64,000 nucleotides of DNA from Anaerolineaceae bacterium. Its GTDB lineage: Bacteria > Chloroflexota > Anaerolineae > Aggregatilineales > Phototrophicaceae. Of the stretch, positions 6,033-50,452 are shown in pieces. The notes under the pieces were generated by a model. The model made no database searches and was not told the origin of the DNA. It saw nothing but the letters and a program-made list of their open reading frames with translations. The position numbers and the translations under genes are program-made. The stretch spans positions 78,282 to 142,281 of the forward strand of contig JAPOVC010000024.1 in NCBI GenBank assembly GCA_026708325.1. The letters run 5' to 3'. Every line of letters begins with the position of its first letter. Within the stretch, counting starts at the first letter, position 1.

Positions 6033-6860
6033 TCAACCGAAAAGCAGGGATTGCGCGCCGTCGATATAGATGACCTCGCCGGTGACGTGGGCGGCCATGT
6101 CCGAGACGAGGAAGAGTACGACGCGGGCGACCTGCTCCGGCGTGGCCGGCGCGCCGTCAGTCAGCGGGACATTGCCGGCGGGCGCCTGCAAAAGATAGCG
6201 AAGCCCCTGACGGCCACGATGCAGCGTGTTTTCCGAAATGTTGGTCGTGACACTGCCGGGGCAGATGACGTTGACGCGAATGCGATCGCGCGCCAGCTCG
6301 ATGGCCAGCATCTTGCCGAGGGCCAGCTGGGCGGCCTTGGAGGCAGCATAGACGGAAGCGCCGCAATTGCTGTACATCCTCGTGCCATTGACGGAGGAGG
6401 TGATGACGATGGCGCCACCCCTTTCACGCAAATGCGGCAGCGCAGCGTTGATGCTGAGGAAGGTGCCCTTGAGGTTGATATCCATGGTCTGGTCGTACTC
6501 GTCGGGCGTGATGTTGTCGACGGCGGCCCAGACGCCGTTGATGCCGGCATTGGCGAAAAGGATGTCAAGGCGGCCGAAGCGCCCCGTGAGTTGCCTGACG
6601 GCGGCGTTCAGGGCGGCGGGGTCGCGCACGTCGGCCTGAAGGGCCATGGCACCGGGGCCGGCGGCGTCCACTTCGGCGGCGGCCGCGTCGAGCCTGTCGG
6701 GGTTGAAGTCCAGCAGACCGACGCGCGCGCCTTCCTGCGCAAACTTCAGCGCCGCCCCGCGGCCAATGCCGGAAGCGCCGCCGGTGACCAGCGCCACTTT
6801 CCCGTCCAGGGGGACGGGAGCCCTTCCGCTCAGTCGCGGGAGTCCTTCATCAAGCTGCAT
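6033..6860 (-). CDS. SDR family oxidoreductase, copy 1 (repeat-derived N-terminus)
   Basis: 275-residue short-chain dehydrogenase with TGGASGIG cofactor loop, NAG, catalytic serine (VITSSVNG) and YAASK active site, so predicted active. The start chosen is the ATG at 6860 (MQLDEGLPRL). The first 20 residues are unusual: EGLPRLSGRAPVPLD is the translation of a palindromic repeat module inserted between the expected MQLD and GKVALVTG. Copy 3 has no such insert. It is the third of three tandem SDR paralogues on this strand, 99 bp after copy 2, followed by an epimerase. Likely role: oxidation of a sugar or polyol hydroxyl. Confidence 0.9.
   Translation of the reverse strand: MQLDEGLPRLSGRAPVPLDGKVALVTGGASGIGRGAALKFAQEGARVGLLDFNPDRLDAAAAEVDAAGPGAMALQADVRDPAALNAAVRQLTGRFGRLDILFANAGINGVWAAVDNITPDEYDQTMDINLKGTFLSINAALPHLRERGGAIVITSSVNGTRMYSNCGASVYAASKAAQLALGKMLAIELARDRIRVNVICPGSVTTNISENTLHRGRQGLRYLLQAPAGNVPLTDGAPATPEQVARVVLFLVSDMAAHVTGEVIYIDGAQSLLFG
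6798..6848 (-). repeat. Double hairpin repeat module inside the SDR copy 1 coding sequence
   Basis: On the plus strand this reads TTTCCCG-TCCAGGGGGA-CGGGAGCCC directly followed by TTCCG-CTCAGT-CGCGGGAGTCC. It is the same two-hairpin arrangement found in the intergenic copies at 32461 and 34321. It is in frame with the SDR and supplies most of its new N-terminus. Confidence 0.9.
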
Positions 6861-6959
6861 GACACGCCCTTTCCCGTCTGCGTATCCGGCGCGCCCCATC
6901 ATAGGGCGTATACGGTGGGTCTGCCAGGTGCGCTGTCAGGCGGCCGCCGGGGCCGGAAA

Positions 6960-7784
6960 TCAACCGCGGAACATGGACTGGGCCCCGTCGACGACCAAGG
7001 CCTCGCCGGTGACGTAGCTGGCCTCGTCCGAGACGAGAAAGAACACGGCGCTGGCGATCTGGTCCGGCGTGGCCGGCGCGCCGTCGGTCAGGGGGACGTC
7101 GCCGCTGTGACGGACGGGGTAGCGCAGCTTCTCCATGTTGCGGTAGCTGATATGGTCCAGAATGTTGGTGCTGACGTTGCCCGGGCAGACGATGTTGACG
7201 CGGATGCGCTCATGCGCCAGCTCGAAGGCCAGCATCTTGCCGAAGGCCAGCTGGGCGGCCTTGGTGCTGGCATACACCGATGCGCCGACGCTGCTGAACA
7301 TCGCATTCCCCGTGACGGAGGCGGTGATGACGATCGACCCGCCCTGCACCCGCAGGGCCGGCAGGGCCGCCTGGACGCTGAGAAAGGTGCCCCGCACGTT
7401 GATGCTGAAGAGTTGGTCGAATTCGTCGGGCCGGATGTCCCCGACGGGCGCCCAGAGGCCGGCGATGCCGGCATTGGCGAAGAGTATGTCAAGGCGGCCA
7501 AAGCGCTCCACCAGCTGCCCAACGGCGGCGTGCATGGCGGCGGGGTCGCGCACGTCGGCGAGCAGCGAAACCCCGCCGGGGCCGACAGCATTAACCTCGG
7601 CCGTGGCCTCATCAAGGGTGTCGGGGTTGAAGTCCAGCAGGCCGACCCGCGCGCCTTCCCGCGCGAAGCGGAGGGCCGTGGCGCGGCCGATACCGGAGGC
7701 GGCGCCGGTGATCAGGGCGACCTTGCCGTCCAGGGGGACGGGAGCCCTTCCGCTCACTCGCGGGAGTCCTTCGTCAGGCAGCAT
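6960..7784 (-). CDS. SDR family oxidoreductase, copy 2 (repeat-derived N-terminus)
   Basis: 274 residues, closely similar to its neighbours. TGAASGIG, NAG, VITASVTG and YASTK are intact. It starts MLPDEGLPRVSGRAPVPLDGKVAL: as in copy 1, a 15-residue stretch encoded by an inserted hairpin repeat separates the initiator region from the GKVAL strand. No Shine-Dalgarno of note precedes the ATG (GGAAAA lies just before it). It lies between copies 1 and 3 with gaps of 99 and 51 bp, so the three are probably cotranscribed. Confidence 0.9.
   Translation of the reverse strand: MLPDEGLPRVSGRAPVPLDGKVALITGAASGIGRATALRFAREGARVGLLDFNPDTLDEATAEVNAVGPGGVSLLADVRDPAAMHAAVGQLVERFGRLDILFANAGIAGLWAPVGDIRPDEFDQLFSINVRGTFLSVQAALPALRVQGGSIVITASVTGNAMFSSVGASVYASTKAAQLAFGKMLAFELAHERIRVNIVCPGNVSTNILDHISYRNMEKLRYPVRHSGDVPLTDGAPATPDQIASAVFFLVSDEASYVTGEALVVDGAQSMFRG
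7726..7774 (-). repeat. Double hairpin repeat module inside the SDR copy 2 coding sequence
   Basis: Same arrangement as at 6798, with one change in the second loop (CTCACTCG for CTCAGTCG). Because it is shared at the same codon position by copies 1 and 2 and absent from copy 3, it either inserted before their duplication or was spread by gene conversion. Confidence 0.9.
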
Positions 7785-7835: not shown

Positions 7836-8615
7836 TCAGCCGCGCAGGATGGAGACGGCGCCGTCGACGACAACGACCTCGCCGGTGACGTAGCTGGCCA
7901 TGTCGGAGACGAGGAAGAGCACGACGCTGGCGATCTGGTCCGGCGTGGCCGCTTCCCCGTCTGTGAGCGGAACGCCGCCGGTGTGCTCGATCGGGTAGCG
8001 CAGTTTCTCCAGGTTGCGGTAGGTGATGTGGTCGAGAATGTTGGTGTTGACGCCGCCCGGACAGACGACGTTGACGCGGATGCGGTCCTGCGCCAGCTCG
8101 AAGGCCAGCATCTTGCCAAATGCCAGCACGGCGGCTCTGGTGGTGGCATAGACCGATGCGCCGCTGTCGGAAAACATGTGTGTTCCTGTCACCGAAGAAG
8201 TGATGACGATCGACCCGCCCTGCGCCCGCAGGGCCGGCAGGGCCGCCTGGACGCTGAGGAAGGTACCCTTGACGTTGACGCTGATGAGGTGATCGAACTC
8301 GTCGGGCGTAATGTCCTCCACCGGTGCCCAGACGCCGGGGATGCCGGCGTTGGCGAAAAGGATGTCGAGCTGGCCGTAACGGTCGGTGAGTTGCGCGACG
8401 GCGGCGGACAGGGCGGCCGGGTGGCGCAGGTCGGCGAGCAATGAAACCGCGCCGGGGCCGACAGCATCCACCTCGGCCGTGGCCTCGTCGAGGGTGTCGG
8501 GGTTGACGTCCAGCAGGCCGACGCGCGCGCCTTCGCGGGCGAAACGGAGGGCCGTGGCCCGGCCGATGCCGGAGGCGGCGCCGGTGACCAGGGCGACTTT
8601 TCCTTCAAGCAGCAT
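7836..8615 (-). CDS. SDR family oxidoreductase, copy 3 (YxxxR active site)
   Basis: 259 residues from the ATG at 8615 (MLLEGKVALVTGAASGIG), which has AAGG eight bases upstream and matches the usual SDR start; a longer reading to 8660 is unlikely. The glycine-rich loop, NAG and VITSSVTG serine are present, but the active-site motif reads YATTR: the catalytic lysine of YxxxK is an arginine (AGA codon). Copies 1 and 2 keep the lysine. It may be impaired or altered in activity. It is the first SDR of the tandem set and follows a Gfo/Idh/MocA gene and a double repeat. Confidence 0.9.
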   Translation of the reverse strand: MLLEGKVALVTGAASGIGRATALRFAREGARVGLLDVNPDTLDEATAEVDAVGPGAVSLLADLRHPAALSAAVAQLTDRYGQLDILFANAGIPGVWAPVEDITPDEFDHLISVNVKGTFLSVQAALPALRAQGGSIVITSSVTGTHMFSDSGASVYATTRAAVLAFGKMLAFELAQDRIRVNVVCPGGVNTNILDHITYRNLEKLRYPIEHTGGVPLTDGEAATPDQIASVVLFLVSDMASYVTGEVVVVDGAVSILRG

Positions 8616-8652: not shown

Positions 8653-8735
8653 GCCCTCACCCCCTGCCTCTTTCCCGCTGAGTCGCGGAAGCCCTGTCCC
8701 GCTCAGTCGCGGGAGCCCTTCCTCAGGGAAAGGGG
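8653..8735 (+). repeat. Composite repeat with two successive hairpin insertions
   Basis: GCCCTCACCCC start, module TTTCCCG-CTGAGTCG-CGGAAGCCC, then a second module GTCCCG-CTCAGTCG-CGGGAGCCC, then the CCTCAGGGAAAGGGG arm. It shows that modules can stack at one site. It lies between the dehydrogenase at 8758 and SDR copy 3. Confidence 0.88.
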
Positions 8736-27611: not shown

Positions 27612-27674
27612 GCCCTCACCCCCCGGCCCCATTCCCGCTCAGTCGCGGGAGCCCTTCCCTGAGGGAGAGGGGGA
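27612..27674 (+). repeat. Composite repeat with one inserted hairpin
   Basis: GCCCTCACCCC start, module ATTCCCG-CTCAGTCG-CGGGAGCCC, then CCCTGAGGGAGAGGGGG. First of three copies in the galK/GH32 intergenic region. Confidence 0.88.
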
Positions 27675-32460: not shown

Positions 32461-32537
32461 CCCCGGCCTCTTTCCCGTCCTGGGGGACGGGAGCCTTTCC
32501 CGCTCAGACGCGGGAGCCCTTACTCAGGAAGAGGGGG
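32461..32537 (+). repeat. Composite repeat with two different hairpin modules in tandem
   Basis: TTTCCCG-TCCTGGGGGA-CGGGAGCC followed directly by TTTCCCG-CTCAGACG-CGGGAGCCC, then a CTCAGGAAGAGGGGG arm. The two modules share ends but differ in loop. It is the same order, on the opposite strand, as the insert in the SDR genes. Confidence 0.88.
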
Positions 32538-34320: not shown

Positions 34321-34397
34321 CCTCATAACCCCTTTCCCGTCCTGGGTGACGGGAGCCTTTCCCGCTCAGACGCGGGAGCCCTTCAGGGAGAGGGGGA
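34321..34397 (+). repeat. Composite repeat with two different hairpin modules in tandem
   Basis: CCTCATAACCCC start (degenerate), TTTCCCG-TCCTGGGTGA-CGGGAGCC, then TTTCCCG-CTCAGACG-CGGGAGCCC and TCAGGGAGAGGGGG. Same two-module order as at 32461. Confidence 0.87.
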
Positions 34398-50271: not shown

Positions 50272-50334
50272 GCCCTCACCCCCCGGCCCATTTCCCGCTC
50301 GGTCGCGGGAGCCCTGTCCCTCAGGGAGAGGGGG
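50272..50334 (+). repeat. Composite repeat with one inserted hairpin
   Basis: GCCCTCACCCC start, module TTTCCCG-CTCGGTCG-CGGGAGCCC, then TGTCCCTCAGGGAGAGGGGG. First of an inverted pair in the 50.1-50.5 kb intergenic region. Confidence 0.87.
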
Positions 50335-50390
50335 AGTCAGGCATTTTGGAGAGCTTCTGTGAATCAACGTCGCTCATCGTTCGGGAAAGT

Positions 50391-50452
50391 CCCTCTCCCT
50401 CAGGGAAGGGCTCCCGTCCCCCGGGGCGGGAAATGATTTGGGGTGAGGGCTG
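50391..50452 (-). repeat. Composite repeat, opposite orientation, with a rare loop
   Basis: On its own strand: GCCCTCACCCC, AAATCA, TTTCCCG-CCCCGGGGGA-CGGGAGCCC, CCCTGAGGGAGAGGG. The loop differs from most copies while the module ends are conserved. Confidence 0.85.

Follow-up and report, generated by a model that had tools for sequence, protein, structure and literature searches.

In-frame copies of a palindromic repeat in SDR genes and other enzyme genes of an Anaerolineaceae lineage

The window, by which we mean the whole 64,000-nucleotide stretch analysed here, contains three SDR genes that form a tandem array on the minus strand. The products of all three match the Pfam families adh_short_C2 and adh_short, as expected for SDR enzymes. 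Copy 1 (6033-6860; adh_short_C2 match at 1.3e-57) encodes 275 residues starting with MQLD-EGLPRLSGRAPVPLD-GKVALVTG, and copy 2 (6960-7784) encodes 274 residues starting with MLPD-EGLPRVSGRAPVPLD-GKVALITG. Copy 3 (7836-8615; 259 residues) starts with MLLE-GKVALVTG and represents an insert-free paralogue with an empty site. The inserts, also read on the minus strand, occupy positions 6804-6848 in copy 1 and 7728-7772 in copy 2, each comprising two hairpins and encoding EGLPRLSGRAPVPLD and EGLPRVSGRAPVPLD, respectively. They differ at a single base out of 45. Both are located after the ATG and three further codons, immediately before GKVAL, and add 15 codons with the consensus EGLPRxSGRAPVPLD. 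The open reading frames therefore bear out what an earlier note on this DNA had reported, namely that copies 1 and 2 carry 15 residues missing from copy 3, and that the insert is exactly 45 bp long in both, so that the reading frame is kept.

The same note had taken these residues for the translation of a two-hairpin module also seen between genes, and sequence comparison upheld this. A 51-bp stretch including the insert is 90% identical to an intergenic copy at 32471-32521 and 88% identical to another at 34333-34384 (both on the plus strand and both with hairpins of types B and A), with one extra base in each intergenic copy. It also matches, without gaps and at 94% identity, an intergenic copy on contig C176 of Anaerolineae bacterium 277c_24 (G002), which we compared together with the window's species (G000) and Anaerolineaceae bacterium RHO3_bin_8 (G001); all three genomes of the genus are draft assemblies. 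The DNA inserted in SDR copies 1 and 2 represents the core part of a palindromic repeat specific to the genus.

To characterize the repeat family, we combined pattern and model searches with fetched genome stretches. The core hairpin CCGCTCAGTCGCGGGAG, with up to three mismatches, has 18 matches in the window, whereas shuffles give an expectation of 0.64, and TCCCGCTCAGTCGCGGGAGCCC, at the same tolerance, has 73 matches in the genome against none for the reversed-pattern control. A covariance model found about 108 matches in the window's species, 36 in RHO3_bin_8 and 38 in 277c_24; when applied with stricter filters to 58 further genomes from the family, it detected nothing. As far as these searches reach, the palindromic repeat is restricted to the genus. 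At gathering thresholds, no Rfam family matched anywhere in the window. A full element is usually 57-63 bp long and consists of GCCCTCACCCC, one or more hairpins and GGGAGAGGGG; the element at 27612-27672 on the plus strand is a typical intergenic example. The hairpins are of exchangeable types (CCCGC-TCAGTC-GCGGG, CCCGTC-CTGGGG-GACGGG and others) and sometimes occur two in tandem, as do the two A hairpins identified by the covariance model in the intergenic region upstream of copy 3 (8653-8735, plus strand; G000:C21:86934-87016). A few paired changes, such as CCCATC...GATGGG, preserve the stem, with overall covariation being slight. Given how much of the fetched stretches is coding, 85 of 104 elements would be expected to overlap predicted CDS cores, but only 5 do. 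Neighbouring elements are arranged plus-minus in 11 cases and minus-plus in 3; one intergenic pair of the former kind (50272-50450) consists of two full-length elements separated by a 58-bp spacer. In the broad sense, therefore, these are REP-like intergenic palindromes: they have many copies, lie mainly between genes, keep their pairing and frequently form inverted pairs.

The elements are unevenly distributed. In G000, all those detected are on 9 of 29 contigs (C1, C4, C5, C6, C16, C17, C21, C26 and C28), amounting to 1.13 of 3.31 Mb. Among the elements listed for RHO3_bin_8, nearly all are on three contigs and one is on a 1.5-Mb contig. Several spacers of inverted pairs (G000:C26:74479-74514 and others) open with ACTTTAA immediately beyond the element; one subtype may have its end extended by this motif.

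The related genomes provide empty, shortened and broken versions of the SDR site. In 277c_24, the three SDR proteins begin with MLLEGKVAL, MLLDGQVAL and MQLQDKVAL, and none has the peptide. Copies 2 and 3 of RHO3_bin_8 both start with MLLEGKVAL and likewise have no peptide, the ortholog of copy 2 (L071:1366) being an empty site. Its copy 1 starts with MQPEEGLPLLEGKVAL, in which seven in-frame residues represent either a remnant or a partial insert. Thus, the copy 1 insert is absent from the 277c_24 ortholog and shortened in RHO3_bin_8. The latter genome also has a decayed fourth copy (L071:2244-2900), which retains the complete insert minus one base, putting the ATG out of frame; an internal deletion in this pseudogene takes out the region around the NAG motif. 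Among the distant homologues inspected as an outgroup, the peptide was not found, and most of these proteins begin within about five residues of GKVALVTG.

How did two adjacent paralogs come to share the insert? Its conservation in both copies might be taken to mean that these SDR enzymes have long had the 15 residues as a functional extension of the N-terminus, and that any likeness to the repeat is accidental. Matches of 88-94% over 51 bp to intergenic repeats speak against this reading, and the empty sites already contradict it: no sister or inspected outgroup SDR has the peptide without the DNA repeat. We consider its probability negligible. More serious is the idea, implied by the earlier note, that the element entered each of the two genes separately and that a local match to GGGAAAGG directed it to the same codon both times. 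The element is present in many copies, and both ends of the inserted fragment are similar to the host's GAAGGAAAGG. Guidance by the codons for DGK, as had been suggested, is plausible at this site but unproven; in the thiamine-diphosphate enzyme described below, a full-length insertion starts exactly at the element's own end and has no such match. Against separate insertions, a single base in 45 distinguishes the two inserts, and both have variants seldom met in the G000 copies (GGACTCCCGCGA with 3 occurrences versus 53 for GGGCTCCCGCGA, and GTCCCCCTGGAC with 3). Moreover, the identity between copies 1 and 2 is 93% in the first 60 alignment columns, which include the insert, but 71% in the following 60 and 74% in the remainder of the alignment. 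At the same time, copy 2 and its empty RHO3_bin_8 ortholog share 92% identity, and a tree groups the copy 2 orthologs with 100% support. This pattern of identity, together with the empty sister ortholog of copy 2, makes a single insertion followed by gene conversion after the species split the probable course of events, and conversion between adjacent paralogs is also the simpler route; two independent insertions appear unlikely. The direction of conversion would have been from copy 1 to copy 2. The 5′ flank of copy 1 in G000 is closer to the RHO3_bin_8 pseudogene than to RHO3_bin_8 copy 1; a duplication or recombination therefore belongs to the less clear history of copy 1.

We also asked where translation of the insert-bearing genes starts. 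Since REPs at the 5′ ends of ORFs in several species were mostly judged non-coding by those who described them (PMC3733652), initiation might take place downstream, at a GTG, leaving the element as a 5′ untranslated hairpin that influences expression. There are candidate codons for such a start, an in-frame GTG within the copy 2 insert and another at V22 in copy 1. However, the first is not common to both genes (the corresponding codon of copy 1 is CTG), and a start at V22 would leave nothing ahead of the first strand of the predicted structure. In copy 2, the 63 bp through the ATG differ at about 7 positions from the empty RHO3_bin_8 ortholog, both have the same GGAAGGA-type Shine-Dalgarno sequence and ATG, and the insert falls after ATGCTGC; as judged from this alignment, the insert lies downstream of the ancestral Shine-Dalgarno sequence and start codon. 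The 5′ region is not predicted to fold more strongly than shuffles, and its stability is about that of the empty-site ortholog, which led us to reject a strong effect of a start-codon hairpin on translation and also detracts from the untranslated reading. The ancestral upstream start, the frame kept in full-length genes and the frame lost in the pseudogene together indicate that translation through the insert, yielding 15 extra residues, is likely, and initiation downstream of it quite improbable. The proposal that the inserts created new N-termini thus stands in so far as the N-terminus is altered; the start codon itself is ancestral, so the proteins would be extended rather than newly started. 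If the insert is translated, the predicted peptides include MQLDEGLPR and LSGRAPVPLDGK.

The SDR genes are not the only coding sequences affected. A census of in-frame insertions in G000, based on a codon-usage gene model and Pfam, revealed several others. In a gene for a thiamine-diphosphate (TPP) enzyme (L139:1849-3729), an inverted pair of full elements with its spacer accounts for an additional 210 bp and a third element for 69 bp; the three elements add about 93 residues. Both insertion sites are within or adjoin the central domain defined by Pfam, and both are empty in RHO3_bin_8 and 277c_24. The inverted pair (L139:2482-2880) has a spacer of about 90 bp, and its outer ends, GCCCTCACCCC and GGGGTGAGGGC, are exact inverted repeats of each other, which suggests that the two elements move as one unit. 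No clear target-site duplication is seen at this site in comparison with the diverged empty sites. In the E2 subunit gene of a 2-oxoacid dehydrogenase (L127:2209-3702), the linker that joins the lipoyl domain to the E3-binding domain contains an element (L127:2482-2542), and the next linker contains another that is degenerate. The first element is absent in 277c_24 and longer by 24 bp, or one hairpin module, in RHO3_bin_8 (L154:10523-10606); by this comparison, hairpin modules change in frame within coding sequence. In a sulfatase gene (L146:2633-3946), the C-terminus is formed by an element. The C-terminal elements of the sulfatase orthologs in two species (L146:2639-2699 and L196:2646-2698) are in opposite orientation, which suggests either independent insertions or an inversion. 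Length differences among the full-length genes with inserts (TPP enzyme, E2 and sulfatase) are all multiples of three. The many upstream-extension ORFs that overlap elements were taken to be open frames entering intergenic DNA and were not counted as insertions.

An element specially built to be stop-free could explain why these insertions are in frame. This was rejected, as the average number of open frames is 3.7 of 6 per element, compared with 4.1 in shuffles, and element lengths show no bias to multiples of three. Given elements without coding-adapted frames or lengths, purifying selection removing the other insertions suffices. The sites that remain look permissive in models and domain assignments, comprising inter-domain linkers, a C-terminus and the disordered N-terminal tail of the SDR. 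In the predicted SDR structure, residues 1-13 have pLDDT below 50 and the first strand is at residue 22; the alignment with the nearest solved chain, 3v8b, starts at residue 18. The 15 added residues probably have no function.

Taken together, these observations point to the following history. In this Anaerolineaceae lineage, a genus-specific intergenic hairpin repeat would move or recombine within the genome, and a 45-bp fragment of its core would have entered SDR copy 1, downstream of the start codon and ahead of the first β-strand, before the window's species split from RHO3_bin_8. With a length divisible by three, no stop in frame and a position in a disordered N-terminal tail, the insert, translated as 15 additional residues, may have been tolerated by the protein. 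Copying from copy 1 into the adjacent copy 2, most likely by gene conversion, would have followed in the lineage of the window's species. We regard this sequence of events as highly probable as a whole; the translation of the insert, the direction of conversion, the neutrality of the insert and the mobilising mechanism are the parts of it that we infer.

The best-known in-frame coding palindromes are those of Rickettsia. Rickettsia palindromic elements (RPEs) lie in frame in unrelated metabolic genes (Ogata et al. 2000, 2002, reviewed in PMC10969869), are about 150 bp long and encode a conserved peptide (PMC10969869). The Chloroflexota element is alike in adding a short peptide, in frame, to presumably functional proteins of unrelated metabolic genes and in being absent from orthologs, as seen in the filled and empty sites of the SDR, TPP enzyme and E2 genes. 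In contrast, it is about 60 bp long, has another sequence and is mostly intergenic. It is also read in various frames or strands depending on the gene, as illustrated by the derived peptides ALTPRPLSRPGGREPFPQGEG, ALTPNPVPSRGTGALPAGRG and EGLPRLSGRAPVPLD, and so has no single conserved peptide. The precedent from Rickettsia that the earlier note invoked holds for the way in which the element works, but precedents are broader, including REPs (PMC3733652) and enterobacterial RU elements (PMC2759123). REPs within ORFs have been reported in many bacteria, and GTAG REPs in Chloroflexi (PMC3733652). Like intragenic REPs and BIMEs of the GTAG and CGTC groups (PMC3733652), our elements are short hairpins, mainly intergenic and often in inverted pairs, and some of them lie within ORFs, either internally or at the N- or C-terminal end; they differ in ending with GCCCTCACCCC and GGGAGAGGGG rather than GTAG or CGTC tags. 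A Y1 (RAYT-type) transposase as the mobiliser was rejected, since PF01797 has no match in any of the three genus genomes while control genomes do match. The outer end GGGGTGAG agrees with GGGGWSAS, a motif found in TIRYT-associated repeats, which we treat only as a lead. Intragenic cases are likewise known for RU elements, whose units span 103-168 bp (PMC2759123). Both they and the present repeat are MITE-like and intergenic, with open frames fused into gene products, but RU elements are longer and unrelated in sequence and host. MITEs in general share the inverted pairs with matching outer ends (GCCCTCACCCC and GGGGTGAGGGC) and the lack of an own gene; here, however, the search for Y1_Tnp found no parent transposon, and no convincing target-site duplication was seen. 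In the open-access literature we found no specific description of coding palindromes in Anaerolineae or Chloroflexi. The Chloroflexota repeat functions like RPEs and REPs but differs from both in sequence, length or end tags, and is best regarded as a new, unrelated family.

A repeat that normally lies between genes thus sits in frame inside several enzyme genes of a little-known Chloroflexota group. It is possible, though doubtful, that this is a protein-remodelling palindrome family, with working enzymes acquiring, losing and swapping its hairpin modules in frame and some segments perhaps taken into use. For annotation, peptides of the form ALTPxPLSRPGGREPFPxGEG or EGLPRxSGRAPVP in proteins of this Anaerolineaceae lineage should be read as repeat-derived and not as domain signatures. 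With filled, empty, shortened and frameshifted versions of one site in three close species, the gain of such an insert, its spread between paralogs, its shrinkage and its decay can be traced base by base.
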